From positions 1 through 64,000 of the forward strand of contig JBBHKE010002600.1 of assembly GCA_037447655.1 (NCBI GenBank): 64,000 nt of DNA. Reading direction: 5' to 3'. Of this stretch, positions 12,608 to 45,467 are shown piece by piece. The DNA is from Zygnema cylindricum. Lineage: Eukaryota > Streptophyta > Zygnematophyceae > Zygnematales > Zygnemataceae. A program made the translations under genes and the position numbers. The stretch's first letter is position 1, and every line of letters starts with the position of its first letter. The notes beneath the pieces were generated by a model. It did not search any database, had not been told where the DNA came from, and worked only from the letters and a program-made list of their open reading frames with translations.

Positions 12608-12609
12608 AT

Positions 12610-12621: not shown

Positions 12622-12645
12622 GGGTTACTGGCAACACTTGCCGGT

Positions 12646-12918: not shown

Positions 12919-12924
12919 ACAAAA

Positions 12925-17934: not shown

Positions 17935-18094
17935 ACTGCGCTGCTATGCTGCTACGCTACTTAGTTGCTACGCCGCTAAGTTGCTATGCTGCTTTGTTGC
18001 GCTGGTCTGGAATCGGCGTTGCGCTGCTCCGACACCGCAACTGTAGCAGCCTAGTTACTAGCTACTAAGTACTCAACTCTGTAACTCTGTTACA
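17935..18094 (-). repeat. Chromovirus 5' LTR remnant (about 160 bp)
   Basis: Matches the outer end of 12925-13468, including the GCTACGCCGCTAAGTTGC repeats and the terminal CTCTGTTACA. It is joined without spacer to RT coding sequence, marking an internal deletion. Confidence 0.8.
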
Positions 18095-20898: not shown

Positions 20899-20938
20899 AG
20901 GGCAATTTCTGAAATTAGAGAAGGAAGGGCGCTATCTT

Positions 20939-22313
20939 TTCTCTTATGAAAGGTAATTACAGAAAATTATCCGGCGGATCCCCAATCTTATCAAGAGACT
21001 CGAGACTCGGACGAATGGGAGGAGAAGTGGAAACCGACGTTTATCAAAGAATTTAATTATGTAAAATCAAATAGGTGTTTTGAAAAGGTAGATTTACCGG
21101 TTGGTAAGAAAGCGATAGACTCAAAGTGGGTTTTTAAGACAAAGACGGGAGCTTCAGGAGAAAATCTTAAGTGTAAGGCACGGTTGGTATGTAAAGGCTT
21201 CCAACAGTAGGAAGGTATTGACTATTCGGAGGCATTTGCTCCTGTAGTTAAGTTCGATTCATTGTGCGCAATTATTGCAATGGCGGCGGCGGGAGGAATG
21301 CACATCCAACAGATGGATGTAGAGACGGCCTTTTTAAATGGTGAATTGGAGGAGGAGGTGTATATGAAAATTCCAGAAGGAGTTCCTGGAAAGAATGGTA
21401 AGGTATGGAGGTTGTGGAAGGCTTTGTATGGTTTGAAGCAGGCACCAAGAACATGGAACCATAAACTTCACAAAGTTTTATTAATTTTGGGATTTAAGAG
21501 GCTTACTGCAGATTGTGGAGTGTATATTCGGGGAGAAGGTTGGGACATGATAATATTTAGTGTATACGTCGATGACTTTATTTCCATCTCTCACAACTTA
21601 GAGTTACTTGGAGAATTAAAAATTGAATTTCGAAAGCACTTTAGAATTACAGATTTAGGGGATGCACAATACATTGTGGGAATTCAGATTCAGAGGAGGG
21701 GGAACGGAGACATTAAGTTGAGCCAAGAGCAATATGCAAAAGAGGTACTAGAAAGGTTTAAAAAATACATTTGGAGGCAGTGAAGAGAATCTTTAGATAT
21801 TTGGCTGGAGCACTTAGTCTTGGAATTGTTTACAAGAAAGGTGAGAGCTTGAATTGTTATGGATATTGTGATGCCGACTATGGAGGGGACCATGATACAG
21901 AAAGGTCTACTTCAGGATATGTGTTTTTACTTACAGGGGGAGCTATCTCGTGGAATTCCCGTTTGCAACCTACTGTGGCACTTTCATCTATTGAGGCCGA
22001 GTATATGGCTGCATGTCATGCTGCGAAGAATGCTGTGTGGATTAAAGAATTTCTATCGGAGGTTGGAGTGGAAAAAGAATGCATGGAAATACTAAGTGAT
22101 AATATGTCTTCCATTGCACTTAGTAAAAATCCTATTTTGCATAAGCGCACTAAACACATTAAAATTCAGTGGCATTTTGTTCGAGATTTGGTTGCGGAAA
22201 AAGAAGTTGAATTTGTGTTTGTACCTACAGAAGAACAAGCTGCTGATATGTTAACCAAAGCAGCATTGAAGGAAGTCTATGAAATGGGAAAGAAGTTAGT
22301 GGGCATGGAGTAA
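20939..22313 (+). pseudogene. Copia-1 reverse transcriptase and RNase H, internally deleted
   Basis: RT motifs KWVFKTKTG, KARLVCKGFQ, a TAG at 21208-21210, FAPVVKF, MDVETAFLNGELEEE, LYGLKQAPRTWN and catalytic YVDDFISIS. The frame breaks near 21770-21782: LERFKKY is followed almost directly by EAVKRIFRYLAG, so roughly 80 residues between the RT thumb and RNase H are missing. RNase H follows with CDADYGGDHD, SSIEAEYMA and ILHKRTKHI, ending at TAA 22311-22313. Confidence 0.85.
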
Positions 22314-22348
22314 GAGAGGGCTTTGAGTATCTCAGTAAGAGGGGGAAT

Positions 22349-22771
22349 GTTAGGATATAGTACTGAGAACTCTTTTAGCGACGAGTCATTCTCGTAGCTA
22401 AAGTAGCGACGACCAGTGACGAAGTTGTTTCGTCGCTGGATATTTGAAGTACCAGCGACGAAGAAGTTTCGTCACTGGATATTTGAAGTGACGCAGAAAT
22501 AAAATGCTCATTTCGTTTCACGTATGTTTGAATAGTACTATAGAAGTGACGTGGAAATTGTTTGGTAGTTTCAGTTCACGTAAGTTCAAGTCGTACCGTA
22601 TGATTCAATTTGGTTCGCGGTTGACTTTCCTAGTCGTACCATGTTGTTCAAGTCGAGTCAACTTTGTCAAGCTCATGTGCTTCACATGCACCCCTTTTAT
22701 CTTACCAAGGATTCCCCGGCCTTTTTCCTCTGTACGGTCATTAAAGTACGAGGAAAGGAGCGCACTCAGCC
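22349..22771 (+). repeat. Copia-1 3' LTR, truncated
   Basis: Follows the purine tract AAGAGGGGGAA and aligns with 12024-12447. It ends after GCGCACTCAGCC, losing about 160 bp of LTR. The next base begins unrelated sequence belonging to the Gypsy-DNMT leader. The missing LTR end was not found after that element. Confidence 0.85.
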
Positions 22772-23964
22772 GGACCAGATTCTTCTATTTTCCTAACTGA
22801 ACGGAACGCAATTTATTTCGCGTCTAACGGAGGCCGGACGACAAAGTTACTCCGTTCCAAAGATTACCATCGTGTTACATGTGACCAGTTGCCAACTGTC
22901 CCGTTGGGGGCTACATTGTGGAACGCCACGTAACTTTCGGGATAGTCTTGTAGATTTTGCTGTTGGCTATCAGTAGGACGTTAGTTCAGGTCCACCAGCC
23001 GGGTAGAGCATTTATAAATGTGAGTCAAAGTTAGGCGTTTCACGTGAATTTAGAACTTTGTTGCTCAGGATTCTGTCATAATAAAAAACCACGTGGCTTC
23101 TAATCTAGCCGGAGATAGTCGCCTAACTTTTTGCCCTGAGTGTAGTACAACATGTTTTGTCTTGTGTCCGTACGATAACAATTCCTGGCCGGTGATTGGC
23201 TCCTGGTATTGCTTTGACTTTGGTACTATGGATAGGACAAACTTTGCTTGTATAAGGCACTTCGGGCCGAGGGAGATAGGTTGCTGTTTCAGTACTGTCT
23301 CTTGAGAAAAACCCTAGAAATTCCAGCAAACTTTCTTGTGGAGAAATTTTGTTTTGCTTGTGATTGAAACCCTATTGCCATCTTGGTTTGCATCCGTCCT
23401 TTGTGGAAATCGTAGTCCGGTTGGGTGGTTGGCACCATCTTTCCTGTTTTGGGCGGTCTGGGGACTAGTGTTTGTTGGAAACCAAGAAGGGTCTTGCCGG
23501 TTTCGGGTCGCGGAAATCGAGGAGTTAAGGAGGCCTTACCTGTTCCGAGGTTTCAGGGGGATATTTCGTCTCCTTTTGGTTGTCCACGTTACGTTTTGGG
23601 GGTAGGTTGAGCTCGCTTGCTATTATTCCACATTCTAACTTTATATCTCTATTCTTTTCTAAGGGCAAGGTGATATTGTTAATTCTAAGACATGATTTTT
23701 ATATTTATATCCTTTCATTTTTCTGAGTGGAAGCATATGGGTTCTCTCTTTGGTAGTCCTTTTTGGGGCTGTGGTTGGGTTTCTTCCGGGTCGATTACCA
23801 GAATCTTTTCTACCAGAATAGCGGATTTTGAGAGGATTTTTGTTAGGCTTCCAACAGATAGTCACAGTACTGAAACAGCAACCTGTCTCTTTAGGTTAAA
23901 GAGGATAGGTGCTCACATCGGAGTACTTTTATAAGGGGATTTAGATCTTCTTTTCCAGTAAGCT
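22772..23964 (+). other. Gypsy-DNMT 5' leader, possibly including LTR
   Basis: Non-coding. It has a TATA-like TTGTATAAGG near 23248 and a short inverted repeat: AGGTTGCTGTTTCAGTACTG (23278-23297) pairs perfectly with 23865-23884. No confident primer-binding site or TG...CA boundary was found. Confidence 0.45.
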
Positions 23965-26900
23965 ATGGGGGGAGGAGAAGTCCAGGATAAGGATCTTCCG
24001 GGGGTCAGATCGGACGAGCAGGAGAGGCAGGAAGCGGTGGCCCAAGAGGAAGAGTCACAGGTGCCCGAGGGAGCACCCTCCTTTGGCTCACCTGTACACA
24101 TAGAGCTGTTTCTTAAGGGAGAGATGCCCCGGGGGGTTGCGGTCGACACTCCTCCTATGCACCCAGAGGGGAGACCCTCCCCTCCACCTCCCTTGTCTTT
24201 TCCCCCCGAGAATTTCCCAACGTTGTCCGAGTCAGTCAGAGCTATGGCTTCGGAGAAGGCAGAGGTTGCCCCTATCCCCTAAAAGCCGTAGAAAGGGGTA
24301 GGGCCACAAGGAAGCAGTCCCTGGTCACCTTCCCGAGGTCGGTCGCTATACCCGATCTAAGGCACCGATAGCAGAAATGTACATGGATCCTACGATCCTG
24401 ACCGATCCTAACCGGCCGGGTCGCAAAGAAATCTTAGCCATTCATGATCTCCATGAGTTGAAGGTTAAGAAGGAGTTGGTGCAGAGGGTAGCCAGGTCAG
24501 ATCGAGCCAGAGTGGTACGCCCAGTGGGAGGTGTAGTGGAGATACTCAGTAGTTCATCCGAGAGTGGCTCCCCAACCTCCGTACCGGAGCAACCGGGAGG
24601 ACCATCAACTTCCTACCAGCAACCCACCCCATCTCAAGACCCCGCAACCAGCAGGCCGGCTCACGGCGGGGCGGTCCCTCGGACACGGGACGGGGAAGGG
24701 ACCAGCAAGTGAGGGTTACCCGAGCCAAATAAGGGGTACAGGTTCGATCATCTGGACCGCAAGGGCAAGTTCGCTCCCCGACCAAAAGCGGAACCGTTCT
24801 TCCCTTCCGATTCCATCTCTCCTAGCTCAAAATCTCCTTCTACTCTGGTGGTTCGACCATCAGAGGGGTTGTGGCGTTCTAGACCCACCGATCCCGAGGT
24901 ACAGGGTTTGGGGATTGCTTATCTCTCAGGGGTGGTGAGCAGTAGACAAAAACTGGTTGATATCTTGCGATCCCAAAGTCAGGCTACGGCGGGGGCTGGA
25001 CCCGTCACTATCGATTGGGAAGCTTTTGAAGAAGAGAGGAAGAGGCCCCTCGAACAGGAATTGCTCCTCATAAGGGAGGCTAGACGAATATCAGGAGGGA
25101 TCCTTAGTGGACAGGTAGCTCCTCTTAGAGAGACAGGTCCCTCGGTTGGGAGACAACCTACAGTGCAGACAACCCCTACGGAGATGCCAGCTCCCGGGAT
25201 TTCTTCGGAACTTAGACCGGAGTCTCCTCTTCAGCGGGAATGGGGGGAAACAACATGACCTAACAAACAGGGGATGGGTGCAGATTTACCGGATAACGTT
25301 GCAGCCGCCTCCACTGAGCGTCCTACTTTGTCTTAGTGGCTGGGTCTTCAACTGCGGAGGCCGTGGTATTATTACAACCCGACCAGAGACAACACATCTC
25401 CCTTGGGCTTTCCACTCCTCCTCCATCTCCACCTCAGGCATCCTCTCCTTCGCCTTCTGTTTCTCCGGCCGCTGCAGTCCGTGGGTCACCGGGACCACCT
25501 GTCTTACCCTACAAGTACGACGTTCCTGCCTACTCTCCTCCTCACCGACGTTCTCCCGATTCCAGCGAAGGAACTCCTCCACCAGAAACCTCCAGAAGGC
25601 GTACACGGAGACAGACACCTTTCCCTCGTAGTCCTCGGTCATCTCCATCCCCTTCTCCACCAATCCCTCAAGGACCATCGGTGACTAAACCTATTCTCCA
25701 CATTCTCTCGGTGGAAACATTTCGCCGAGAGGAACGGGCCTCTTTTGGGTATAGAGGAGCAAGACTTCAGGCAGTTTTTCCCAAGATGATAAGCTCCTCG
25801 TTTCCCAAGGGCCAACTCCAGGGAGATACAGGCCATCTCACTATCCCACTAGTACCCGGAACTTCCTCAGTGGAGGGGAGTGCCATCTCTCGTCAGACAG
25901 CTCCCTCTACCGGAGAAGGAGGCGGGCCCGAGCCTGACAACGCAGATCCACGGGTAATTTCACCGGTTCAATTTGTTAGCCCAACCGGACCATCCTCTTC
26001 ACAGTTCACCAACCTTGTAGAGGAGGAAAAAGAAATGGGGGACGCAAGGATCTTTACAGGAGATAGCTCGGGAATCGCTTTCTCTGATTTCGAATTGCTG
26101 TGGAAGTCGTTCACCCAATCTGAAATTAACAAATACAGGGGCGGAGCCATTCCGGATGACTTCGAGACCACGCTTTTCCCCATGATAGTGAACTATCTGG
26201 CTGGGGGCGCTTTGGAAGACTGCAAGGAGCGACAACCCTTTCTGATGGCTCCGAGCATCAAAATATCAGACCCTATCCTTGATGAGGCAGTCTTGCAAGC
26301 GGAAGCAGACTTGGCTGCCGCTGCAGCCGCTCCTGTCACCGCCCTCTTCACAGAGGACATGAAACTGCAGGCACAAGGACGATCCTATATCGCTCAGGTT
26401 CAAGCCATCCAGGAGGCCAAGGCAACCACTCGGATGGTTGCAGACCCAACCCCCTGTACCACTCTTTTGAATGCCTGGAGACTCTTTTACACCGAGAGGA
26501 ATGAATCTGCTATCAAGGAATTCACGAAATTCCGTTGCCAAAAGAGTGAAACACCCCAGACTCTTTCTAACAGATTGTCCAGCCTCTGTCAAAAGACCAA
26601 ACTCTCAACCATTGATCTTCCGGCCATGGCAACCAAATATTTCATCGCCGTCCGAAATTCGTTCGGACCGACGGGGCAGGCCGCCCTCAATAATTGGATT
26701 GCGGGACAGGCCATCCAGGACGTCAATCCAACCGCCAAAGAAATATCTCTGGCGCAATGAAGCTTTATGATCACTTTGTCCACCGAGAGGCCCAGGAAAA
26801 AGCGGTAACCGGAAAAACCCGAGGGAACTTTGCAGGATTTGCCGGAGAAATGCCTCCCGAAAATGAAGAGTCGGCCGAGCTCTTAGCCTTGCGGAAGCTC

Positions 26901-27472
26901 AAGGGGAAACAGGTGGTGGATAGCGGATCCGAACCTGCCATGGGGCCGATGAGAGTTTTTTCCTCTTTAACTGTTTAAACTGTCAACAAACAGGTCATGG
27001 ATGGAAGCGATGCCCCGGGAAGCTCAAACCGGAATTACCTCTTAAGCAGAAGGAATGGGAGAAGGAGAGAGCTGAAAGGACAAAGAGGCAACAAGAAAGG
27101 AAGCAAGGAGGAGGGTCAGACAATAAAACACCGGTGAACAAAGACAATTACCGGCCGACGCCACGATCTGAGACTGCAAAGATGTCGCAAGCCCAGTTGT
27201 GACAGATAAAACTTCTAAAATTTGATGACGCGTAAATCTCCAATGAATTGAGGGGCAAATATACTACCGAGGGCTCCAAGTGTGAGGCTTGCGGTTTCAT
27301 GGGTCACAAGGAAGGGCAGTGCTTCCGAAAGAATGGAGTCCCTAAAGAGATTATGCAATATGCACTGTTCACCGGAGAAGGTGAAACTGCCGTGAATCCT
27401 CTACCGCTGAAGCTTCTTTACCCTTGGGGACGCCGCACCCCGGAGAACCCAGAACGACAGCCAACAGGTTAA
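23965..27472 (+). pseudogene. Gypsy-DNMT gag (frameshifted), proline-rich, two zinc knuckles
   Basis: Likely start ATG 23965 (MGGGEVQDKD). The frame breaks several times: 23965-24282, 24377-24712, 24848-25258, then 25336-26760, the best-preserved part. That part has a Pro/Ser-rich arm followed by a helical gag core (LLNAWRLFYTERNESAIKEF, LSNRLSSLCQKTKL). Downstream are two CCHC knuckles: CLNCQQTGHGWKRC from about 26972 and CEACGFMGHKEGQC from about 27287. The long proline-rich N-terminus is unusual. Which breaks are real and which were programmed shifts cannot be told from one copy. Confidence 0.7.
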
Positions 27473-28212
27473 GCCCGATTTACACCGGAGGTTATCATCC
27501 AACAGCAGAGCCAGCAAATGGCAGCCATGGCCGTAGAATTGGCATCTCTGCGATTAGGATCGCCCTCCAGGACTCCCGCTATGACGGCCGCCCAAAAACT
27601 CCACCGGAGAAAACATGAAGTACTACAAATACTGGCAGAGCTTGAACAGGAAACCGCAGCGGGCGAAGACGATGACGAGGTGATGGGATGGGACATGGAT
27701 CCTCCGAAAGCACATCACACACATACCTTCCTTTCTGGAGCCTGGAATGTCGGGGTGGGGGACAATCGCATGCATCTCCGCAACTCAACCTTGGCGCAGC
27801 GAATGGACATGTAGAAGCTCGCTCCACGAGACCACAACAGGAACGCTACTGGACCTCTGTCCTTCACCCCCAGGGCCGTCATCCTCAACGACAACATACG
27901 CCTCGGAATAAAATCTACAAACCCACCTCCACCAGGCGCAACAAAACTGCCTCCGGGATTTGAAAATTATAGAACAACGAAAACAAGGAAGATGGAGGAA
28001 CAAGCAAAGGAGGAAGAGACGCGTGACAACCAAGACTGGTTCGAAAAATATTTGGCAGAACGCCCGGAGGATAACACGCCAGAAACGCCGCCTGCGCCAG
28101 AATCCGACCAAGAAATTGAGGAAGCAGGAGGGGGGGAGAAGAATCAACCGGTGGAACCAATAGATTCCTCCATTTCGTCACCAAAAATTCAACCTCCTCC
28201 TCCAAACCAGCA
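27473..28212 (+). pseudogene. Gypsy-DNMT gag-protease linker
   Basis: Two short frames, 27518-27814 (helical, LHRRKHEVLQILAELEQE) and 27992-28216 (acidic, Pro-rich, DNQDWFEKYLAERPEDN), in different registers. They probably form the decayed connection between gag zinc knuckles and protease. No recognised domain. Confidence 0.5.
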
Positions 28213-28953
28213 GTGATGTTAGTAAAGCAACTAATGCCTTACGCTCTCACACGCGTGAAAACACTGGCCTCTTCTCATAACTTGCCGGAGGAAGTTCTCA
28301 TCCAGGCCCTCAGAGAGGAAATCCATTCAGGAGGGGAGAAACACCTGGCCGATCAGGCCAGATCCGTTTTTTGGTCAGCCGACCCAAAAACACCTATGAT
28401 GGATAAGGACTACAAAACGCTATCTGTGGCTCTAATTCTCAACCGGATTGGGAATTTCAAACTCAACGGATACGGCGGGTATCAAGACGTAGTGGTCGAC
28501 ACAGGAGCACTCCCAAATCTAATCACCACATCGGCTCTGCAGCAAATGCCGGAAGAACTTCGACCGGAAATCTTCCCCAGTGACATCTGTCTAAGTACTG
28601 TTAGCAATGTGAGCCAACCGGTCCACGGAATAATCAAAGCTATGTTAATAGAGTTTGCCGACGACGCAGGTCAAAAGGTCCGAATTCAACTTCCCTTCCT
28701 GGTGGTGGAAGGTAAGCAGTTTGAGATTTTATTGGGAATGGCCACCTGGACAAGGGTGAATATGGGATTAAGTGTGTGGAAAGAGCAGTTTACTGTTAGG
28801 GATCCTGAGGATCCAGAAGGAGTCAAGGTGATGGTTCCCTGGATCTATGGAATAAGGGGAAAGATAATGCTCCCGTCGCAGGATGTTATCCCGTCTATGC
28901 CACTCACACACCCACGGAACTGCTTGCCAGCGCCACCGATATCGCAGACATAA
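28213..28953 (+). CDS. Gypsy-DNMT aspartic protease domain
   Basis: Open frame of 246 codons. The retropepsin active-site motif VVVDTGALPNLI has D-T-G at 28498-28506, and FEILLGMATW matches the conserved flap/ILG motif near the C-terminal end. It would cleave the polyprotein. The frame ends at TAA after PPISQT; a short out-of-frame stretch (28954-29033) separates it from the DNMT. Confidence 0.78.
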   Translation: MMLVKQLMPYALTRVKTLASSHNLPEEVLIQALREEIHSGGEKHLADQARSVFWSADPKTPMMDKDYKTLSVALILNRIGNFKLNGYGGYQDVVVDTGALPNLITTSALQQMPEELRPEIFPSDICLSTVSNVSQPVHGIIKAMLIEFADDAGQKVRIQLPFLVVEGKQFEILLGMATWTRVNMGLSVWKEQFTVRDPEDPEGVKVMVPWIYGIRGKIMLPSQDVIPSMPLTHPRNCLPAPPISQT

Positions 28954-29033
28954 TATAGCAATTCCCTATTTCCAAGCGGTGGGAAGAAGGATACCAGAAC
29001 AGATTATTACAAATAACAAAACTTCGGCAGGAA

Positions 29034-29284
29034 GTGGACAAATCCTTGACAGCAGTTTTTGTAAAGGAAGAAGAACCTCGGTTGGAATCTTCGAAAATTC
29101 CGCCCGAAAATCAAAAAATCGATCGACAAGTGGTGTCATTATCTATCCCAGACTCTGGACTCCGGATATTATCCCTATTTTCTGGAATTAGCTCGGACCT
29201 CGAAGCTGTCTTAAAAGCTGGGCACAAAGTGGAGTCATATGTGGCCGTGGAAATTTCACCGGATGCTCGGGCCGTCAGTGAATA
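29034..29284 (+). pseudogene. Gypsy-DNMT cytosine-5 methyltransferase, N-terminal part (motifs I-II)
   Basis: Motif I, RILSLFSGISSDLEAVLKAG (from 29163), is the S-adenosylmethionine-binding FxGxG-type loop of C5 methyltransferases. Motif II follows as VAVEISPDARA with the acidic residue at 29250-29252. The order and spacing (K-V-x-x-Y-x-A-x-E) resemble DNMT3-like enzymes. The frame is cut by Copia-2 after SEY. Skipping Copia-2 and one copy of GAATA, the next codon continues in frame at 35727. Confidence 0.85.
29280..29284 (+). repeat. Copia-2 target-site duplication, left copy
   Basis: GAATA, repeated at 35722-35726 directly after the 3' LTR. A 5-bp duplication is normal for Copia integration. 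Confidence 0.9.
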
Positions 29285-30331
29285 TGTTGAAATTTATAGA
29301 TTTCTAGAGTATTTTCTAGGTTTAAATATGTTTTTACAAAAGGAAAAAGGAAAGGACGGACAGCCTGCCTCCACCTCCGCTCTCTAGCCCCCATACTTGT
29401 TGTAGTCACTGAAGGAAAGAGAGAGAGGTTGATCCATGGCTGCCTTAGTTCAACAGAAAGCTATTTTTAGTAGGTTACTAAAAATATACTTGACGGACCA
29501 GAGATTTGATCTCGGTACCTGCGGTTCGTCAAGTCGACCGGTAGCGGTCAACTTTATCCTAATAGACTAGGACCAATGCTAAGTGCTATGGTATGTGATA
29601 GATATATATTTAGTTCGAAAGGATAAAGTTCATTTAACTAAAACTGTTTACGGCGTACATATATACAGTTTTATAAAGTACGTCGTACGACGCTAATTCA
29701 AAACGGATACCACGCATTTTATTTCTACATCGGAACAAATATCGCGCAAGCATTTATTCCGGCCAAGATTACGTTTCGCATATAATCCAACGGCGCACAT
29801 CATCGCCAAAATCCCGGAGTGGTCACTTTGGCATTTAGTGACGTGGCATCACCTGGCGCCACGTGGGGAGACATCATTCGGTCGCGGGAATTCCGAGGAA
29901 CGTACGGATGAGTGGAAAGTATACACGCGTCCACTTATGGCCTTGTCGTACAGAGGCCGTACAGAAAGTACATCGGCAGTAGTACTTTCTAGTACTATAC
30001 AGTTTTGTGATTGGTTCGTACAGGCAGTAGATAGGAGCTGTGAGAGGGAATTAGGAAAAACTAGGACTTAGGAAAATTTAGGTAGATAGTCCTCTCTCTC
30101 AGAGAGTTTGTATAAATTGGCATCTTTGCCACCCTATAACTTATCGCCTGGTTGGCCTTTTTCAGTGATTCTTTTTTCTACGGACTCAGGGGAGTCCAGG
30201 CTACACAGGGGTGTAGTCAAATTGTCAGTTTGCCTTCTTGGGCAGCAGTGGTTGTGGCTTAAAGTAGGTTAGTTTAATACTATCTAGAGGCTTCCTGTAT
30301 TCTGTGGTCCAATGGAGGACACAGAATTGCA
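29285..30331 (+). repeat. Copia-2 5' LTR (1047 bp)
   Basis: TGTTGAAATTTATAG ... GAATTGCA. Contains the TATA box at 30111 and, unusually, the gag ATG at 30312 twenty bases before its end. Confidence 0.95.
30111..30117 (+). promoter_or_regulatory. Copia-2 LTR TATA box
   Basis: TATAAAT preceded by a CT-rich stretch, about 200 bp before the gag ATG. The same sequence is at 35501-35507 in the 3' LTR. Likely core promoter for the genomic RNA. Confidence 0.65.
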
Positions 30332-33300
30332 GGTTATGGGCCCACCCTCTAGGGTGCCCACCTTCAATGGATCTGGGTTCATCTATTGGGAAGCCATGAT
30401 GATGGGAGCTTTGTGTGAAAAACGATACTGGGGTATCGTCAGTGGACAAGTGAAACGTCCACCTTCAGGAACTCCACCAGGATTTGGGGGAGTAAGGTTT
30501 CCTGCAACAACGGCTGCCTCGGCGGAGGAGGCAGATGATAAGGATAGCAGTGTGTCCGAAAAGGGGAAAGGGAAAGAGACACCCCTTACTCCTATTGCCA
30601 CAGTATCGGGAGCGGCAATCGTGAAGACCGTGGAGAACGATACTCAAATGTGGGAGGATGTAAACATGGCTGCCAAGAACTTCATTCTGAGGCACCTCAC
30701 TCAAGGTTTGGCCACTCCTCATCTTCACATTTACAAGGCCGAGGAGTTGTGGGTGAGTTTGGTGGAAATTTATAGAGCTGGAACTATTCAGGAGCTCCAG
30801 TTGGCTGAGCAAAAGCTATTGAGTTACACTTACAAAGGAGGAAAGATGTTAGATTACTGTAATGATCTTTCTTGTTTGTATACAGAAATGGAAAGTGCCG
30901 GGTGGATAGGTACAATGAAAATGAAAGTTAACACCCTTATCATGAAATTACCAAATGAGTTCGAAAACTTAGTGTACTGAGTACAGGGAATGCCTGATAG
31001 TTCATGGAAATGGAACACAGTAGTCAGGATGATACTTGTGCAGGAAAACACAATGGAGATTAGGAGAGGAGGAAAGAGCATTCAAGCTCTAGCAGTAGGA
31101 GGGGACCGATGGGGAAAGGACCCGAAGAAACCTTATAGAGGGGAAAGAGATCATTCAGGGGGACAAAGGCCCCCAAAGGGTCTTTGTCATTATTGCAAAA
31201 AGCCGGGGCACTTTATTGCAGATTGTGTCAAGCTATCAGAGCTGAGGCTCCAAGAGAACCGTGGAGGGGGTTCTTCCGGAGGGAAGAAAAAGGCACTTGT
31301 GGATACAAAGGTGTCAGGAGAAACCGAGGATGAGTCCTCTGAGGAGGATGGGGAGCTTCTTCTTGACGAGAGTTTGGAGGAGAAGGATATTCCTCGGAGG
31401 CAGAAGTGTGCCCTTGGAGCCATCCGGGAAGCTCCACAGGAAGGATGGATCATCGACTCAGGTGCATCCATGCATATGTGTCGTGATAAAGAACTCTTTA
31501 CTAAGTTAAGAAAGATTCCTACTGTAGAGATAGAGTATGGGGATGGGAGAGTGGTTACTACAGATCTAGTGGGATCAGTAGATCTGAAAGTCTTAGTGGA
31601 GGGTAAGACTTCTATACTTACATTCTCAGATGTACTTTACATTCCACAGCTGAGTAAAAACCTTGTCTCTACGTCTGTGTTAGATGACAAAGAGTTTGAT
31701 ACCTTCACCAGAAAGGGAGTCTTTACAGCTAAGTATGGGGATGAAGTTTACTTCACAGCAGATAAGGGTAGCCAAGGAATGTTTAGGCTTAACTTGAGTA
31801 ATGAAAAGAAGAATGCTTACTATGTTGGTGTTCCTAAGGTGATGATTTGGCATAAGCGGTTGGGGCATGTACATTTTGATAGGTTAAGGGAAATGAAAAA
31901 ACTTGGGGTAGTAGATGGCATTGAGTTTGGGGATAATGAAATAATGGATGATTGTAGTGGTTGTGCTCAAGGTAAGGCTCACAGACTTCCCTTTCCCAAA
32001 GCCGCCACATATAGAGGTGAGAAAGTATTAGATTTAGTCCACACAGATATTTGGGGGCCTGCAAAAGTACCTTCGGTTGGAGGAAAGAGGTTTATGATGA
32101 CAATAACTGATGACTGGTCTAGATACTCTAGAGTCTACTTTTTGAAAACAAAGTCTGAAGCATCAACTTACTTCAAAGAATATAAAGCTTGGAGTGAGAA
32201 GTTGCATGAAACCCCCATTAAAAGGATAAGGAGTGATAATGGGGGGGAATATACCTCTAACGAGTTTGAGGAATATTTGAGAGATGAGGGAGTGCAGCAC
32301 CAGAAAACTGTACCATATAACCCAGAACAAAATGGGGTAGCTGAGAGGTTGAATAGAACACTAGGAGATAGTGCATGCAGTATGTTGGCAGACAAGAAAA
32401 TAGGAAAGAGATTTTGGGCAGAGGCAATGAACTGTGCCAACTATATTAAAAATAGAGTCCTTACCTCAGCTGTAAAGGGAGTGACACCTTATGAGAGATG
32501 GGTTGGAAGGAAACCAGATATCTCACACCTTAAAGTATTTGGTAGCCAAGTTTACAGTCTTGACACGGATAGGAAAAACTGGAAACTAGATGCTAAGGGA
32601 AAACCTGGATACTTTGTGGGATATGATGAGGATGTTAAGGGATATAGAGTCTATGACTTAGCAAAGAAAGATATCATTCTGGTCAAACACTTAGTTGTCA
32701 TGGATGAAGGGAAGTCATTTGACCCCTTCAAATATACAAAGAAGATAAGGATCAGATTTGAGTCCGAAAGTGAGGAGAACTCAGTCGTTCCCGAAAAAGA
32801 CATGAGTGAAACTGTGATTACAGATTCAGGGGAGATCGAAGATACAGGAGACTCACCGGAATCCTCACATACCCCTATGGACTTCGAGGAGATGGAAGAA
32901 ACGGGACAAGATACGGTTTTTATGGACAGGGGAGCCGATGAGACAGTGAGAAGAAATCCAAGACTTCCATCCATTCCAGCTTCGGAGTTTGAGGGAGGAA
33001 GGAGGAGCAGCAAAAGGATACAGGAAAAACAAGCTGCCCATAAGGTAACTAAGCTATCTCACCCAGATGAGCCTCAGTCTTACTTAGAGGCAGTGAATAG
33101 TCCAGAGAAAGAAAGATGGATTAGAGCCATAAATGATGAGATGGCTTCTATCATGGAAGCAAATACTTGGGAACTAGCGGATTGCCCTCCAGACAGAAAA
33201 CCTATTGGATGTAAATGGGTATTTAAACTAAAACTGAACCCAGATAATACAATTGAGAGGTATAAGGCTCGATTGGTAGCAAAGGGGTTCACCCAAAAAG

Positions 33301-34661
33301 AGGGGATTGACTATGAGGAGACCTTTGCTCCAGTTGTTCGGTTCCCGTCGGTAAGGATTCTCCTCAGTCTGGCCGCAGCGGAAGACATGGAAATTCACCA
33401 GATGGATATTAAGACTGCTTTTCTTAATGGTGAGTTAGAGGAAGAAATTTTTATGAGGCAACCCGAGGGGTTTGTGGAAGAAGAAGAAGAGAGCAAAGTG
33501 TGCAGGCTCATAAAATCCTTATACGGACTGAAACAGGCTCCCCGACAGTGGAATAAGAAACTAGATGAGTTTCTCACCGATCTGGGATACATCCGGATCA
33601 GCTCTGACCATTCTATCTATATGTTTGAAGATGAGAATGGTGTCATTTTTATTGCAATTTATGTGGATGATCTGCTTGTGTTAAGTAAGTCTTTAGATAA
33701 TATCAATAGGCTAAAGAAAGATCTTAGGGGCAGATTTGATATGAAGGATTTAGGGGAGGCAAAATATATTTTGGGGATCCAAATGGAGAGAGATAGAGGG
33801 AAGAAGATTATCAGACTTACTCAGAAAGAAGCAATAGGTAATATGCTTGAGAAATTCCAGATGGAAAATGCTAACAGTTGTACCACTCCCATGGACTTGA
33901 AAAAAGTAAGTGATGGGAGTGTAGAAGGAGGAGTGATGATCTTAGACGATCAGATGAGTCTAGAGGAGAGAGAGTTCATGAAGTCTATTCCTTATAGACA
34001 GGTCGTAGGAAGCTTAATCTATTTTATGAACTGTACCAGGCCGGACATAGCGGCAGCAGTTGGAGTACTCAGTAGGAGTCTTAATGATCCTAGGAAGAGA
34101 GATTGGGAGGCAGCCAAGAGAGTCATGAGATATCTGGTGGGAACTAGAGAGTTATGGTTGCATTTGGGAGGGGAGCATACTGATATCACCACTTGGAGTG
34201 ACGCCAGTTATGGGGATGCACCTATGAGAAGATGCACTTCTGGATATGTTTTGTATGTGGGGGAAGGTGCTTGCTGTTGGAGCAGTAAGCAACAAAAGGT
34301 GGTTGCTCAGTCTACTATGGAGGCTGAGTATATGGCGTCGTGTTCTGCTGTAAAAGAACTAATGTGGGTGAAATCATTGTTACAAGAACTGGGATTTATG
34401 AAGGAGGGAGTGCATGAAATCTTTTGCGATAACCAAGCTGCAATTGCAATTGCAGCCAATCCAAAACACCATTTCAAAGCAAAACATATGGACATAAGAT
34501 TAAGCTTCGTAAGAGAAAAAGTTGAAAATAAAATTCTAAATCTTGTGTAAAGACCTGATGAAGAAATGGTGGCTGACATGATGACCAAACCTGTGCCCTC
34601 TCCTAAACTAAAATATTGTCGGGAAAAATGCGGGTTGAAAGAAAAATTAAAATTAGACTAG
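30312..34661 (+). pseudogene. Copia-2 gag-pol polyprotein (two nonsense codons)
   Basis: One frame of about 1450 codons from ATG 30312. Gag core runs to TGA 30978-30980 (CGA likely ancestor), continuing in frame at QGMPDSSWKW. Zinc knuckle CHYCKKPGHFIADC (from 31185); protease WIIDSGASMHMC; integrase zinc finger (WHKRLGHVHF to CSGCAQGKAH) and core VHTDIWGP, RSDNGGEY, NGVAERLNRT; RT KWVFKLKLNPDN, FAPVVRF, MDIKTAFLNGELEEE and catalytic YVDD at 33660-33671; RNase H WSDASYGDAP and STMEAEYMA. TAA at 34548-34550 precedes the usual C-terminal ADMMTK motif, and the frame ends at TAG 34659-34661. No frameshift is needed anywhere. Confidence 0.95.
30332..30346 (+). promoter_or_regulatory. Copia-2 primer-binding site for the anticodon stem-loop of initiator tRNA-Met
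   Basis: GGTTATGGGCCCACC directly follows the LTR and is the exact complement of GGUGGGCCCAUAACC, the anticodon stem-loop segment of plant initiator tRNA-Met. This implies priming by a cleaved half-tRNA, as known for Drosophila copia. The site is also coding sequence, within the gag frame (V-M-G-P). Confidence 0.85.
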
Positions 34662-34674
34662 AAAATAAGGGGAG

Positions 34675-35721
34675 TGTTGAAATTTATAGATTTCTAGAGT
34701 ATTTTCTAGGTTTAAATATGTTTTTACAAAAGGAAAAAGGAAAGGACGGACAGCCTGCCTCCACCTCCGCTCTCTAGCCCCCATACTTGTTGTAGTCACT
34801 AAAGGAAAGAGAGAGAGGTTGATCCATGGCTGCCTTAGTTCAACAGAAAGCTATTTTTAGTAGGTTACTAAAAATATACTTGACGGACCAGAGATTTGAT
34901 CCCGGTACCTGCGGTTCGTCAAGTCGACCGGTAGCGGTAAGCTTTATCCTAATAGACTAGGACCAATGCTAAGTGCTATGGTATGTGATAGATATATATT
35001 TAGTTCGAAAGGATAAAGTTCATTTAACTAAAACTGTTTACGGCGTACATATATACAGTTTTATAAAGTACGTCGTACGACGCTAATTCAAAACGGATAC
35101 CACGCATTTTATTTCTACATCGGAACAAATATCGCGCAAGCATTTATTCCGGCCAAGATTACGTTTCGCATATAATCCAACGGCGCACATCATCGCCAAA
35201 ATCCCGGAGTGGTCACTTTGGCATTTAGTGACGTGGCATCACCTGGCGCCACGTGGGGAGACATCATTCGGTCGCGGGAATTCCGAGGAACGTACGGATG
35301 AGTGGAAAGTATACACGCGTCCACTTATGGCCTTGTCGTACAGAGGCCGTACAGAAAGTACATCGGCAGTAGTACTTTCTAGTACTATACAGTTTTGTGA
35401 TTGGTTCGTACAGGCAGTAGATAGGAGCTGTGAGAGGGAATTAGGAAAAACTAGGACTTAGGAAAATTTAGGTAGATAGTCCTCTCTCTCAGAGAGTTTG
35501 TATAAATTGGCATCTTTGCCACCCTATAACTTATCGCCTGGTTGGCCTTTTTCAGTGATTCTTTTTTCTACGGACTCAGGGGAGTCCAGGCTACACAGGG
35601 GTGCAGTCAAATTGTCAGTTTGCCTTCTTGGGCAGCAGTGGTTGTGGCTTAAAGTGGGTTAGTTAAATATTATCTAGAGGCTTCCTGTATTCTGTGGTCC
35701 AATGGAGGACACAGAATTGCA
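34675..35721 (+). repeat. Copia-2 3' LTR (1047 bp)
   Basis: Same length as the 5' LTR and about 99% identical. It ends GAATTGCA followed by the duplicated GAATA. It also carries the ATG at 35701, here reading into the flanking methyltransferase sequence in another frame. Confidence 0.95.
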
Positions 35722-35726
35722 GAATA

Positions 35727-36560
35727 CCGACTACAACAACTCCACCAATTGTATCCCCAACAACTCCCGGTATCCGCCATCTGCAGATCTCACCGAAGTG
35801 TTCCGCAAAATATAGACCAGATCCTGAAGCCACATCTTGCTATGCTGGAGCGAGTGGATTTGCTGATTGCAGGATGGCCATGTCAAGGATACTCTCTAGC
35901 CGGGAAAGGCGAGGGACATCAAAATAGTAGAAGTCGAACCTTCTTCCAGATGATCAAATTACTTTCCTGGCTGCAGCAATCCTAAGACCAACCAGTGGGG
36001 TACGTTTTGGAGTGTGTCTATCCGGGAGATGATAAGAGAAAACAAGTTGCAAATAGATGGAATAAAGTCAAGCAGATTCTAGGAGCTCCACTTGTTTTCG
36101 ATGCGGCGCAACTGGGATCCAGGGCTCACAGAGTTCGGGTGTATTGGACCAATTTGATACCTCTGTCAGTCCTGAACAAGCTCTTACAAAACTACAAAAC
36201 AGATCCCCAGATTACCCTGTAACAAATTTTAGGGAAAGGGCGGATGGCTACTCCCGTAACTAAGGCTGATCGTCCTCCGTTGGTCCAGTGGAACCAACCA
36301 AGAGCACCACGGCGAGCACTGCCAACATTGGTTTCCTTCCCCAATAGCCATGCGTATCAAAAGGGAGCGGCAGGAATGATATTTGACAGCAAAAGTGGAG
36401 TTTGGACAACGCCAACGGTGGAAGAACGAGAACAAGCCATGGGATTCAAACCAGCAAGTACCGCGGCACCAGGTATATCAGACCTCCAGAGGTGCAGCCT
36501 ACTCGGACAAAGCATGGATCTAAATGCAATAATATGGGTGATAAATCATTCCCTAGCCTT
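35727..36560 (+). pseudogene. Gypsy-DNMT cytosine-5 methyltransferase, C-terminal part (motifs IV-X)
   Basis: Motif IV LIAGWPCQGYSLAGKGEG has the catalytic Cys codon at 35881-35883. After FFQMIKLLSW an in-frame TAA (35983) occurs; then motif VI-like YVLECVYPGDD, where the usual ENV is ECV; then DAAQLGSRAHRVRVYWTNL, motif VIII with R-x-H-R-x-R (36121). A second TAA lies at 36220. Motif IX (EEREQAMGF, 36421) and motif X (RCSLLGQSMDLN, 36490) follow. All parts share one frame with 29034-29284 once Copia-2 is skipped. The AHR-x-R-x-YW-x-NL context suggests DNMT3-like ancestry over DNMT1; that is inference. Confidence 0.88.
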
Positions 36561-37854
36561 CTCTAGCCTACAGTCTCCGCAATCAAGGGATCGTTACCTT
36601 CAAGCTCCAAAGTTGTTAGCGGTGCAGGCCCACTTGCAGCTTGAGGGGGGTAGGGAGGCAAGAAAACAGTTTTTATCATCAAAATTTTCCAGTCCCAGCA
36701 TTTTACCGAAATTGAGGGATTCCTTGGTGAGGGGGAGCGGAGACTCGGAGAGAGACAGCTTAGCGGAAGTTGTTAGCAGCAGCCTTCTAACAGGAGGAGC
36801 TGAAGTAGACCCGCAGGTAGGGATGATATTCGATATCTCTCGATGGGGTAGACCCCCAGAGGCCTGGGCAGGGGTGGAACCCGGAAAGATGGATTGGACC
36901 TTAGGGGAGCAGTTGGACCCTCAACAAAAGACCCAGCTCTCCAACCTATTGGAGAAGAACAAACAAGTGTTCTCTTGGTTAGATACCGACGTAGGCATCT
37001 ACAAAGGAACCCCTTTTCGAATCGGTTTAATAGACGAGACGTTTACTGTTTGGCAGAAGCAGTACCCTCTCAGTTTCAAGGAAAAGGAGTTCATCACGGC
37101 AAAGGTACAAACTCTGGTAGAAGCAAGATTGGTTCAAAAACGTACCGGACTCCATGGATTTAAGTCTCCAACTGTTCTCCCACCCAAGAAGGACTCATCT
37201 GGGAAAACGGTAGACTTTCGGATGTGTGGAGATTACCAGATGCTTAAAACGGCAACTGTACCTGACCGATACCCAATGCCTACCCCGGAAGAGATTTTTG
37301 ACTCGCTGGCCGGGGCCACCATTTTCTCCACCCTAGACATGAAGAATGGGATCCACCAGATTGCGATGGAGCCAAAGCACCGGGAAATGACAACTTTTTG
37401 GGCAGGGTCCAGGTTGTATGAATGGCCCTACATGCCATCCGGGTTGAAGAATGCGCCAGCCAAATTCCAACGTGCCATGGACGAGGCACTCCGAGGAATT
37501 GACTGTGCACTGTGCTATATAAACGATGTGATTATCTTCTCGAAGACCTTCGAGGAACACTTGGAGCACATACAGATTGTACTTCGAGCTCTCCAAGCAG
37601 CGGGCTTGAAATGTCACCCGGGTAAGGGAATTTTTGGGGTGCACAAAATTATTTACCTGGGACACAAAGTTACACCCGGGACAGTGGGTCCCCATATGGT
37701 CAAAGTTGCGGCCCTTGATGCCCTACCCCCTCCTCAGGACGTCTCTGCACTCCGCACATTTTTAGGCCTGGCTAACTATTATCGAAGATTCATCCCTGAA
37801 TTTAGCAACCACGCTCAGCCTCTAAACCAATTGCTGCGGAAAGACCAAGAGTAG
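36244..37854 (+). CDS. Fused ORF: DNMT motifs IX-X, linker, and Gypsy reverse transcriptase
   Basis: A single 536-codon open frame. Residues about 1-105 are the end of the methyltransferase (motifs IX and X), about 106-215 a Ser-rich linker, and the rest a Ty3/Gypsy RT: FRIGLIDETF, VDFRMCGDYQMLKT, YPMPTPEEIFDSLAGA, FSTLDMKNGIHQIAM, MPSGLKNAPAKFQRAM, then CYINDVIIFS where the catalytic YIDD or YVDD should be. The first Asp codon of the pair is AAC (37522-37524), so RT is probably dead by a G-to-A change. The C-terminal LRTFLGLANYYRRFI connects to RNase H. The frame ends at TAG 37852. Confidence 0.9.
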   Translation: MATPVTKADRPPLVQWNQPRAPRRALPTLVSFPNSHAYQKGAAGMIFDSKSGVWTTPTVEEREQAMGFKPASTAAPGISDLQRCSLLGQSMDLNAIIWVINHSLAFSSLQSPQSRDRYLQAPKLLAVQAHLQLEGGREARKQFLSSKFSSPSILPKLRDSLVRGSGDSERDSLAEVVSSSLLTGGAEVDPQVGMIFDISRWGRPPEAWAGVEPGKMDWTLGEQLDPQQKTQLSNLLEKNKQVFSWLDTDVGIYKGTPFRIGLIDETFTVWQKQYPLSFKEKEFITAKVQTLVEARLVQKRTGLHGFKSPTVLPPKKDSSGKTVDFRMCGDYQMLKTATVPDRYPMPTPEEIFDSLAGATIFSTLDMKNGIHQIAMEPKHREMTTFWAGSRLYEWPYMPSGLKNAPAKFQRAMDEALRGIDCALCYINDVIIFSKTFEEHLEHIQIVLRALQAAGLKCHPGKGIFGVHKIIYLGHKVTPGTVGPHMVKVAALDALPPPQDVSALRTFLGLANYYRRFIPEFSNHAQPLNQLLRKDQE

Positions 37855-38523
37855 TAGTGGACGGAGGAGCAACAGATTGCCTTCCAATTCCTCAAGGATT
37901 CCTTGAAGCAACACCCAGTGCTCCGAATGCCTGATCACCAAAGACCATTCCTCCTTTACAGTGATTAGAGCCGGTTTGGATTGGGAGCTGTTTTAGCCCA
38001 ACTGGATGATGCTGGTGCCGAATATGTGGTAGCTTACGCCAGCAGGAGTAATAACCGAGAGGAGGGGAACTACAGCAGCTATCACGGGGAATTACCGGCG
38101 GCGGTATGGGCCATCCAACACTTCAGACCATACCTATACGGAGTCCATTTCACTCTGATCACGGATCACCAGCCTCTCAAGTGGATTATGGAGAACAGCA
38201 AGCTCACTGGCAAGCTCGCCAGGTGGGTGTTAATACTGCAGGAATATGACTTCAACATAATCCACCGGGCCGGAGTGATTCATGGGAATGCCGACGGACT
38301 TAGCAGAAATCCTGACCCTTCCACTAGAGATTCCACCGGGGCCCGCCATGATGAGGACCCTGAAATCAGTTTGGGACTCATTCGAGCTTCCTCTGCCTTT
38401 ATTTGGCTTCCTCAATCTGGGGGGGGGATGTCCACTTTCTCTGCAGAACTGGAGGGGCAGGCGCCAATAGGGGCCGGACGGAAAGATATTTGGAATGATC
38501 CCGATGCACTCCAATCTGTCTAA
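37855..38523 (+). pseudogene. Gypsy-DNMT RNase H
   Basis: Continues the RT frame after two consecutive TAG codons (37852, 37855) in a W-rich context (ahead of WTEEQQ) and a third TAG at 37966 between YSD and SRFGLGAVL. Then YASRSNNREEGNYSSYHGE, ITDHQPLKWIM and HGNADGLSRNP, the standard end of Ty3/Gypsy RNase H. TGG to TAG explains these stops. Confidence 0.83.
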
Positions 38524-39490
38524 CAAGGTTTCCCTCTTCCGCATTTGTTAAGAGTGCAGTTATCTCGGGTGCAAACACGAATGGCGGCATACGAGTGGGA
38601 AAGGGGCATCTTAATCCGGAAGTGGGCAGATGGGACGAGGAAAGTGATTCCTCCCCCGGCCGACAAGGAGACTCTTATTTTTAACATTCACCAGCAGTGT
38701 GGCCATTTTGGGCAGAACGGACCACCTCCTTGGTCGCGGGATCGTACTGGTGGCACGGGTTGCGGACCCAAGTCAACCGGATTGTGCAGACGTGTTCCTC
38801 CTGTGAGCGAGTCAAAGCAGCTTTCGACAAAAAAGGAGGTGCTCAGCTTCATTCCCTTCCCATCGGGGGATGTTTTATCGGTGGTCTCTAGATCTGCTGG
38901 GTCCTCACCCCACTAGTAGACGAGGGAACCGCTTTGTGTTGGTAATGATAGAGCATTTTCCCAAGTGGATCGAATTGGTGGTCTTACCCAGGAAGGAGTC
39001 CAAGGCGATTGTGGACGCATTCTTGCAGAGAGTGCTTTCCCAATTTGGGGCACCAGCCGAAGTTCTGACCGACCAGGGCTCCCAATTTGCGGGAGAATTC
39101 TCCAACTTGTTGGAATTGTGTCTCATCGACCACTGCTTGACCAGCCGAGACCATCCACAAGCCGACGGTTTGGCCGAAAGGTGCGTGGTGACAGTGAAGC
39201 GGTCACTGCGTAAATATGCTGTGGAATAGGATCTAGGAGAGTGGGATAGAAGGGTGCCTTGGATCGCCATGGGGTACCGATTCAGTCGGCAAGCATCCCT
39301 CCACTCCCACAGTCCATATTTCCTTTTGTTCGGACGGCACCCCATCCTCCCCGGCGCTGCCTCGGCCCAAGCAGTGGTCCTTCCGGAGATGGGCAGCAAG
39401 GGAACGGTCGAAAATTGATTGCCGACAGGGCCAAGGTATTTCACCGGGAAATGCCTCTGGCCATGGGGAATTTACAAGCAGCTCAGCACT
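38524..39490 (+). pseudogene. Gypsy-DNMT integrase (frameshifted, 3' truncated)
   Basis: Zinc region HQQCGHFGQN then, after a frameshift near 38715, CSSCERVKAAFDKKG. A second frameshift near 38870 leads to the core: WSLDLLGPHP, VLTDQGSQFAGEF and HPQADGLAERCVV with catalytic Asp, Asp, Glu. TAG at 39227 sits in VE-stop-DLGEWDRRVPW where Trp is expected. Homology fades after LLFGRHPILPG and a short basic stretch to about 39560. No 3' LTR was found. Confidence 0.8.
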
Positions 39491-41029
39491 GAGATCAACT
39501 CTGGTATTCGCAACGCCGGAGCGAGAATTTTGTCTCGCGGCAACGGCAACGAATGAAAAACAACCCACGCACGCGCCACACAAGTGGAAAATTTTAGGAA
39601 GATGAAAGAGTATTCCTTATTTTACTCGGTCCCTGCTCGTCATGCGCATGTACGGAAAAGACAAGCATATACGGAAAAAAAATCTACATGGGTCTCGACC
39701 CTCCACTTTCATTCATGGGTCTTATGCAAAATTTTGCGTCGTCGTCGCCTCTCCCCTCTCCCTCTTACAGTGCTCTTAACTCACACGTTTGCACGAAAAT
39801 AGTGGTATGAAATGAAAGGTATTTGAAAAATAATTATTTTGACTGCCTTTACGTATATTTTTATGACAAGTCGAATGGGAAATGTCGAAAAAACGAAATC
39901 AGGTAGCCATGGCGGAAAGTTTTTAAATGTGTGACGTTAACGTTGTCACAAGTGAGTATGGCGTCACCAATCGTTGGAAGTTTCGTAGTCCTCTTCAACC
40001 GTTGCAAAGTTGTACCTACGTACACAACCATCACAAGTCAAAGTTTCGATTTCATTTTCGCACATTGGGACGCTCTTCAGAGTAGTACGGAGATTCTTCA
40101 CTACAGTCCAAAATACTTTATCAAAGTATTGATTACATGGGACACCCCCTTAAACATGTGTCACCATTTCAAAGTGGTTAGAGAAGCTCAAAATCAGAAT
40201 AATTATGGGCTGACAATGCTTGTGACGGTTATAAACATTTAGAATCTATGATATAGCACCTTATTTTTTGAAACTGTTTGTGACGTCGCGTGTCTTTGCG
40301 TGACATTGTAAACGTAAAGCTTTCCATCACTGTGTTATTCTTGGTTGAAAAAAATACCCTTGCCTTTGTCTTTCATATCCTTTTGAACTGAAATGACATC
40401 GAATTCTTACGACAGCTGCAAAAACAAAATTCGTACTAGATGCAACACACAAAAACTAAAAATATTGTTTGACATATGCAAAAATAAATTTGTACGAGAC
40501 TGAAACTGACAAAAAAAGGAAAAAAGTGGTGTACTTCTTTTCGTTGAAAACTTTTGACATCGTATGAAACGTGCGACGTTGTTTTCCTATTTGTGATCCA
40601 ATGATACTTTCTTCAAAATTTTAAAGGTAACGTTTGAAATGACATGGCCATAAGTTGAGAAACACAAGATAACAAAGTGTAGTACATACTAAGATTAAAG
40701 CTGACGCAAATTCTACTTTAGTGTTTGTACTTCGTTTTATTCACTTTCTTTGCACAATTGTAGATTTCATCTATGCAGTGCTAAGTTGTAGAGGAAAATG
40801 AAAGAAAAAACCCCTTATTTTGGCGCATGAAATCGAACCCCTACTAAAGAACTCTTTGTTCCAAACGGTTCACTTTGTTGTTTGTATCGTAAATTCAACG
40901 AACGAAATGTCGTGTAATTTTCGCATGGCGATGTTCTGATCCGAATTCTTCGAGAAGATGGCGTTATAATTGGAATATGCATTCTGAAAGACTCCATACA
41001 CAACAAAGTATTTTGGAAATGCCGAAGTC
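39491..41029. other. Intergenic AT-rich DNA, no gene recognised
   Basis: The first 100 bp may still be the tail of the Gypsy integrase C-terminus. Beyond that there are only short frames and no repeats with clear termini. Confidence 0.4.
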
Positions 41030-45230: not shown

Positions 45231-45467
45231 CTTATCCAGTTTGTGGCCGGTTTTGTATTTCTTTCTGTTTTGTTCTGCAAAAAAATAGTTCTTTATTCTG
45301 CTTAGTGGGATAAATGGAGTGAGTGGGTGTGGGAAATATATCCTTTTTGTAATTGGGAAGCTTTGACTAAAGATAACACCTTCGCTGAATTATTTTTGTC
45401 TTTTGTTTTTGTTATGCTTCTGCTACTTTTACTTTTTTTTATCAACCTTATCACCTTGGGCATGCAG
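45231..45467. other. Spacer before the duplicated exons
   Basis: No gene. The T-rich stretch 45390-45440 could be ancestral intron sequence of the duplicated fragment. Confidence 0.35.

Follow-up and report, generated by a model that had tools for sequence, protein, structure and literature searches.

A Ty3/gypsy retrotransposon family of Zygnema cylindricum with a DNMT3-class methyltransferase domain behind a conserved stop codon

The 64,000-nucleotide stretch of the Zygnema cylindricum genome analyzed here (GenBank assembly GCA_037447655.1, contig JBBHKE010002600.1, positions 1 to 64,000; referred to as the window) carries a dead copy of a Ty3/gypsy retrotransposon, whose family possesses a DNMT3-class cytosine-5 DNA methyltransferase (DNMT) domain as a standing part of Pol. 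In the window's lineage, an in-frame stop codon is found at a fixed place between protease and DNMT, and we consider it likely that the Pol of this lineage is produced by UAG readthrough, and that its DNMT methylates the element's own cDNA.

Structure of the element in the window

The order protease (PR), reverse transcriptase (RT), RNase H (RH), and integrase (INT) with an rve integrase, by which Ty3/gypsy elements are recognized, is present in the window, and the element was assigned as Ty3-like because the integrase comes 3' of RT and RNase H. Its features, including those of the inserted Copia element, are as follows (ORF, open reading frame; aa, amino acids; LTR, long terminal repeat).

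22766..39545, + strand: what is left of the Ty3/gypsy DNMT element, with Copia inserted at 29285-35721; 3' end missing before the PHD region
25318..26760, + strand: gag-like ORF, an open frame of 480 aa, named from its position and the CCHC knuckle downstream
26972..27013, + strand: CCHC zinc knuckle CLNCQQTGHGWKRC, recognized by eye
28120..28950, + strand: aspartic protease, DTG within 28495-28509 (PF13650, E = 0.0045, under the curated cut-off)
28956..28958, + strand: conserved stop TAG (context TAG CAA TTC CC) at the protease/DNMT boundary; proposed readthrough site
28959..29284, + strand: first part of the DNMT, with motif I (LSLFSG, 29169-29186) and motif II (VEIS, 29247-29258)
29280..29284, + strand: target-site duplication GAATA, left copy
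29285..35721, + strand: Ty1/Copia element inside the DNMT (LTRs 29285-30331 and 34675-35721; Pol ORF 30981-34550)
35722..35726, + strand: target-site duplication GAATA, right copy
35727..36630, + strand: second part of the DNMT (PF00145, E = 2.4e-9; best PDB match DNMT3A, 6.3e-7)
35872-35895, 36001-36018, and 36118-36156, + strand: DNMT motifs IV (GWPCQGYS), VI (LECV, within this interval), and VIII, respectively
35983..35985, + strand: in-frame TAA, decay
36220..36222, + strand: in-frame TAA, decay
36424-36447 and 36499-36516, + strand: DNMT motifs IX (EREQAMGF) and X (LLGQSM), respectively
36901..37851, + strand: reverse transcriptase (RVT_1, 1.6e-22)
37969..38520, + strand: RNase H (PF17917, 6.8e-31)
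38647..39549, + strand: integrase, zinc binding and core (rve, 1.8e-11), occupying more than one frame

This copy is dead: it is split by Copia, interrupted by stops and frameshifts, and has lost the sequence beyond approximately 39545. The frame changes between protease and DNMT, that of the protease shifting out shortly upstream of TAG 28956-28958; the integrase is in several frames, and the catalytic motif of RT is YINDV (37516-37530), for which another genomic copy has YIDDV. In the Pfam scan, no match was obtained with the gag-like ORF, or with the first part of the DNMT on its own; the latter is joined to the remainder of the DNMT in other genomic copies and in the related protein P0001 (copies in the genome are given by L numbers, and proteins by P numbers). 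Homologues of the protease were found in other genomic copies (44-76% identity). The copy composed of L029, L014, and L030 matched the window at 22766-27781, 28103-29284, and 35722-39545 (blastn), and the window integrase matched L014 in pieces with 78-91% identity (tblastn). No flanking LTR pair was found for this truncated copy by blastn of the window, nor were LTRs of its own subfamily by blastn of the window and other copies including L014.

The inserted Copia element has two LTRs of 1047 bp with 8 differences (6 of them transitions), and its Pol ORF encodes 1189 aa (RVT_2, 8.8e-84; rve, 7.4e-13 by Pfam). L020, from the same genome with 93% DNA identity, crosses the Copia site without interruption and contains GAATA once, its matches to the left and right flanks meeting in the same five bases (4845-4849), that is, an empty site. 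Since L020 is contiguous over this site, the DNMT motifs were one domain before the insertion.

An earlier note on this DNA had described a Ty3/gypsy element encoding its own methyltransferase. The C5 methyltransferase motifs (I, II, IV, VI, VIII, IX, and X) and the DTG of the protease are all located where it had placed them, and the PF00145 search that it proposed gave a significant match with the ORF holding motif IV alone (E = 2.4e-9; 37.5 bits vs. a cut-off of 22). The motifs are far beyond chance, a DNMT-RT relative being matched at E = 4.9e-197 with 52% identity. Corrections are nevertheless required. The DNMT-containing frame begins at 28959, directly after the TAG, and not at 29034 as in the note, and the 6.4-kb Copia element, which had been overlooked, separates motifs I-II from IV-X. 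Its statement that the DNMT shares frame and ORF with RT is right for motifs IX and X only (ORF 36223-37854): motifs IV, VI, and VIII are in the frame of RT, but severed from it by the TAA at 35983 and/or 36220, and the protease ORF ends in a frame other than that of the DNMT. The DNMT is nevertheless not a host gene beside a transposon, as the note had argued, because less damaged relatives (P0001, L014, and L023) have DNMT and RT in one ORF. Methylation of its own or host DNA, which the note had envisaged for the element, does not apply to the window copy, which is split and decayed.

Copies of the family in the genome

The genome searched (352,776,454 bases in 2689 contigs) contained at least 123 matches to PF00145, all exceeding the cut-off. 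The DNMT-RT stretch of the window gave at least 68 match rows including the window itself (63 of the 4578 first-look candidates scored), the others being 63-91% identical; by our own count, 33 of the 68 span residue 1-2 to 707-708, and 3 of these 33 have no internal stop. When 10 kb were fetched around the best 20 of the at least 123 PF00145 matches, and window and relative sequences were used as queries, RT was located downstream of the DNMT on the same strand in 15 loci, protease upstream in 16, and the whole order PR-DNMT-RT-RH-INT was found in 10 of the 20. L015 matched none of these queries, and L009, L011, L025, and L026 had no fitting RT. The genome accordingly holds further copies with the PR-DNMT-RT order, and the assignment in the earlier note of a Ty3/gypsy family with its own DNMT is borne out.

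In L014, the sequence from DNMT through PHD is one frame of 1520 aa; in L023, gag through PHD forms one frame of 2395 aa between direct repeats (LTRs), which are identical over at least 533 bp at both ends and belong to a subfamily other than that of the window. L012, L013, L023, and L024 make up this second DNMT-Ty3 subfamily. The integrase part terminates in a PHD finger in L023 (8983-9117; PF00628, 2e-10) and in L014 (about 8835-8969; 0.0019, under the cut-off).

A genome search with RT alone gave at least 125 match rows among 3695 candidates, and 1 kb upstream was taken for the best-ranked 20 RT copies outside the listed DNMT matches and the loci fetched earlier. DNMT sequence was found upstream in all 20 (9 spanning at least 290 of the 301 residues unbroken; shortest, 69), and the DNMT is therefore a standing part of the lineage in this sample.

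A 5743-aa open frame among the genome matches was an artefact from a run of N. TAG/TAA as a sense codon was rejected for these elements; the Copia frame (1189 aa) and the DNMT-element frames (1520 and 2395 aa) are open in the standard code.

Conserved stop codon between protease and DNMT

Of the 20 fetched loci, 14 could be read at the junction, and each of these 14 had a stop there. A total of 53 junctions (the window, the 14 fetched loci, and 38 of 40 further copies, two of which did not align) were then compared; these copies are of the window's kind, the subfamily without the stop being excluded, and are related rather than independent events. A stop was found in 52 of the 53, with TAG in 50, CAA as the next codon in 49, and then TTC in 51. 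The exception (L069) reads TTG at the junction, and by eye seems to have an LTR terminus of the nested Copia element inserted at this place. Codon identity at the stop was 0.94 (third of the 53 codons), compared with a mean of 0.547 for the others (the stop and the next two excluded), and was at least 0.85 through the ninth codon past the stop, save codon 3 (0.60). The codons flanking the stop (about 20) were in one frame on both sides in all 14 fetched loci and the window; within the 50 codons shown upstream, the frame was kept in 12 of the 14 loci, and shifted at a greater distance from the stop in L025 and L028. No conserved ATG was found downstream of the stop in the aligned junctions. The stop was common to divergent subfamilies: the window and L014 types, L011/L019/L026, and L025. 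An in-frame stop thus occurs at a fixed place with a conserved context, and because 52 of the 53 copies have it precisely at the protease/DNMT boundary, Pol, starting with the DNMT, would probably be made by readthrough. Programmed readthrough, known from other Gag/Pol systems, would be the most economical interpretation.

Murine leukaemia virus has a leaky UAG stop in Gag/Pol, and the readthrough context of tobacco mosaic virus is UAG CAR YYA. The present family resembles such leaky-stop systems in the in-frame UAG ahead of Pol followed by CAA UU, and differs from them in that the first Pol domain is the DNMT, and in the sixth base past the stop (C, not A).

Class, catalytic residues, and selection of the DNMT domain

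The domain is a DNMT3-class cytosine-5 methyltransferase, the class being assigned from solved structures and the motif order. DNMT3 was the closest among solved C5 methyltransferases by both sequence profile and fold, and the motif order (I to X) is the same as in DNMT3A and DNMT3B and unpermuted, unlike DRM. On the other hand, identity with DNMT3A/DNMT3B was about 27% over aligned residues (P0001 model), the domain belongs to a retroelement polyprotein, and no PWWP/ADD match was obtained in the Pfam scans made. PF00145 scores (curated cut-off, 22 bits) were 37.5 bits for the window ORF, 52.5 for L014, and 48.8 for L023. Among rows with letters at these positions, the catalytic Cys (motif IV), Glu (motif VI), and Arg (motif VIII) were conserved in 36 of 36, 38 of 38, and 40 of 40, respectively; the window DNMT retains all three, motif VI being ECV rather than ENV. 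We infer that the enzyme may be active in the family.

Pairwise ω (dN/dS, the ratio of nonsynonymous to synonymous divergence; Nei-Gojobori) was calculated for pairs with dS of 0.1-1.0 among copies sharing 45% identity or more with the window, a threshold that removes L012, L013, L023, and L024 from the DNMT set. Median ω was 0.20 for the DNMT (38 pairs, 16 copies) and 0.217 for RT (33 pairs), with 0.175 for integrase (22 pairs), 0.29 for RNase H (34), and 0.43 for protease (23). A given copy can enter several pairs, which are thus not independent, and post-insertion decay raises ω. The DNMT is under purifying selection like RT.

Relatives in other organisms and two domain orders

The DNMT part of P0001 retrieved 38 proteins, P0001 included. 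The named sources were the liverworts Calypogeia fissa (contigs up to 8.8 Mb) and Marchantia polymorpha (up to 1.9 Mb), Closterium NIES-53 and NIES-54, and EukProt Chrzof1, which we take to be the chlorophyte Chromochloris zofingiensis; Klebsormidium nitens was not among the names of the hits. P0010, labelled as a protein of an Obscuribacterales metagenome-assembled genome and located on a 2.4-kb contig, is probably eukaryotic contamination. The viral and GTDB genome collections gave 11 and 62 pattern matches, respectively, none of which was a relative.

Pfam scans of P0001, 19 others among the 38, and P0002, together with blastp, revealed two orders, PR-DNMT-RT (type A) and RNase H-DNMT-integrase-PHD (type B), many proteins showing part of an order only; the PHD finger was likewise detected terminally in type B proteins (Pfam). 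In the DNMT tree, in which cellular eukaryotic DNMT3 is not represented, one branch split A from B with support of 94/90 (40 rows) and 99/97 (49 rows including nine genome copies), and the A/B label corresponded to one change, 13 rows of unknown order being uncounted and the labels of P0011, P0014, and P0018 relying on protease-like sequence read by eye. With a type B query, the type B order was not found in the Zygnema genome among the 42 of 12,220 candidates scored, all 42 matches lying within query residues 489-994 (integrase onward).

The RNase H of the window was 53-66% identical to that of six DNMT-bearing relatives of both orders and 51% to that of P0003 (without DNMT), while its integrase was 50-55% identical to six of type B vs. 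28-30% to three without DNMT. These identities favour one backbone that possessed the DNMT before the place change. The DNMT-bearing rows were on one side of the RT tree (89/93; six rows without DNMT, one a very long branch), and were not on one side of the integrase tree (2 changes, weak support).

Other elements and features of the window

The gag ATG of the nested Copia element sits within the LTR end. Right after its LTR, from 30332, the sequence GGTTATGGGCCCACC looks complementary to the anticodon region of initiator tRNA-Met, in the manner of the half-tRNA priming of Drosophila copia and Ty5. A second Copia element was found at 12023-22771, its LTRs being 99.1% identical and matched at 12023-12447 and 22347-22771. 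It contains an exact match to the initiator tRNA-Met primer-site pattern at 12610, and a minus-strand Ty3 element is nested in it at about 13.3-18.1 kb. The match of its 3' LTR ends at 22771, where the homology of the DNMT element begins.

The CpG observed/expected ratio was 1.0 in the other Ty3 and 0.88-0.93 in the flanks; for the DNMT-Ty3 and the two Copia elements, values of 0.54-0.71 were obtained, a pattern as expected if some of the DNMT-Ty3/Copia elements were methylated in the host. Positions 40000-64000 are host-like, with diverged repeats at 45464-46229 and 60759-61565, and the ORF at 56041-56445 by eye resembles CEMIP/G8-type proteins.

Proposed mode of action and alternatives

In the mechanism that we favour, Gag-protease would end at the conserved UAG in the window's lineage, and occasional readthrough would yield Gag-protease-DNMT-RT-RNaseH-integrase-PHD with the DNMT as the first Pol domain. 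The DNMT would then be packaged with RT into the virus-like particle at the low (Pol) dose, and may methylate the double-stranded cDNA of the element before or at integration.

It seems unlikely, by comparison, that the DNMT acts on host chromatin and marks the insertion site together with the C-terminal PHD finger, helping targeting or persistence in methylated chromatin. The PHD finger past the integrase core of L023, L014 (below the cut-off), and the type B proteins fits this idea, as does the coupling, in DNMT3 enzymes, of the methyltransferase with an ADD reader resembling a PHD finger; however, DNMT and PHD are at opposite ends of Pol, and proteolysis would probably part them. We give a slightly smaller chance to the UAG simply ending a separate Gag-protease cistron, with DNMT-Pol being made by reinitiation, internal entry, spliced RNA, or frameshift. 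That the stop is not obligatory is clear from the single-ORF subfamily, but the common frame of the codons on both sides of the stop (14 of 14 loci and the window), the higher conservation of the codons at and after it than of most neighbours, and the lack of a conserved ATG after it all argue for readthrough instead.

A non-catalytic DNMT, kept for structure as a passenger or nucleic-acid-binding domain, is improbable: its faster change than RT over long distances and the replacement of PC by EC in motif IV (see below) would agree with such a role, whereas there is practically no variation in the catalytic Cys, Glu, and Arg, and selection at shorter distances is purifying like that on RT. Practically nothing speaks any longer for a host DNMT gene that by chance lies beside, or was hit by, a transposon. 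The DNMT of the window is fragmented and shares the ORF of RT only in part, from which such an origin might be read, but it is refuted by the copies, since tens of them have the same order, and single proteins contain both domains.

Several observations weigh against the readthrough and self-methylation that we propose, in addition to the relatedness of the 53 copies. L025 has TAA GAA ATC at the junction, and L023, L024, and L013 (the other subfamily) pass through it in a single open frame without a stop. Furthermore, 7 predicted proteins of a liverwort-like clade of type A end 88-127 aa past motif X, as if the DNMT there closed the gag-protease ORF rather than opening Pol. The dosage logic is not universal because of this stop-free subfamily and these short liverwort-like proteins. 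Over long distances (window vs. L010, L027, and L028), dN of the DNMT was approximately 3-fold that of RT (0.23 vs. 0.07 for window-L010), and the first DNMT segment (D1) gave a median ω of 0.48 with only 5 usable pairs. In 11 of 36 DNMT relatives (including P0020, P0028, P0033, and P0039), motif IV has EC in place of PC; Pro to Glu next to the catalytic Cys is an unusual change. Finally, a published gypsy DNMT had no activity in yeast, a result that its authors regarded as inconclusive (de Mendoza et al. 2018, PMC5890265).

Comparison with published elements

DNMT-bearing retroelements have already been published for Klebsormidium nitens (gypsy) and dinoflagellates, the earlier note having rightly pointed to charophytes and dinoflagellates, and cDNA methylation was proposed for other DNMT elements in the same paper (PMC5890265), to whose passages considered here the following comparison is limited. 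By its description there, KnitGypsy-Dnmt3 is alike in that an intronless DNMT3-class domain without the DRM-type permutation is found in the gypsy Pol ORF, and in purifying selection (published Ka/Ks < 0.2 vs. the median of 0.20 here). A DIRS-like repeat arrangement is given for it in the legend, and the repeats of L023, a copy of the second subfamily, are plain direct ones. SymbioDIRS-Dnmt3 and SymbioLINE-Dnmt of dinoflagellates similarly contain a DNMT within a retrotransposon (in the ORF of RT in the DIRS version), but have DIRS (tyrosine recombinase) and LINE backbones without an rve integrase. In these passages, neither a stop codon before the DNMT nor a PHD finger is mentioned for KnitGypsy-Dnmt3, and a leaky stop, two DNMT positions, and liverwort elements were not met; we do not claim priority for them. 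Since a DNMT-bearing gypsy element has been published, the present family is a variation on a known theme, with the conserved stop as an added feature.

More broadly, and only tentatively, an ancient Ty3 lineage with a DNMT3-type enzyme may predate the split between green algae and land plants and survive in liverworts, charophytes, and chlorophytes, the DNMT having moved once within Pol and a leaky UAG dosing self-methylation in some lineages.

Plants mark transposons for silencing mainly by cytosine methylation. Here, purifying selection maintains a methyltransferase within an element lineage, and the reason for which a parasite should possess the enzyme of its silencer becomes testable, because the dose (apparently set at the Pol level via the conserved stop), place, and substrate of the DNMT are open to measurement. 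If the UAG is indeed leaky, self-methylation would be a built-in, dosed step in the life cycle of the element.

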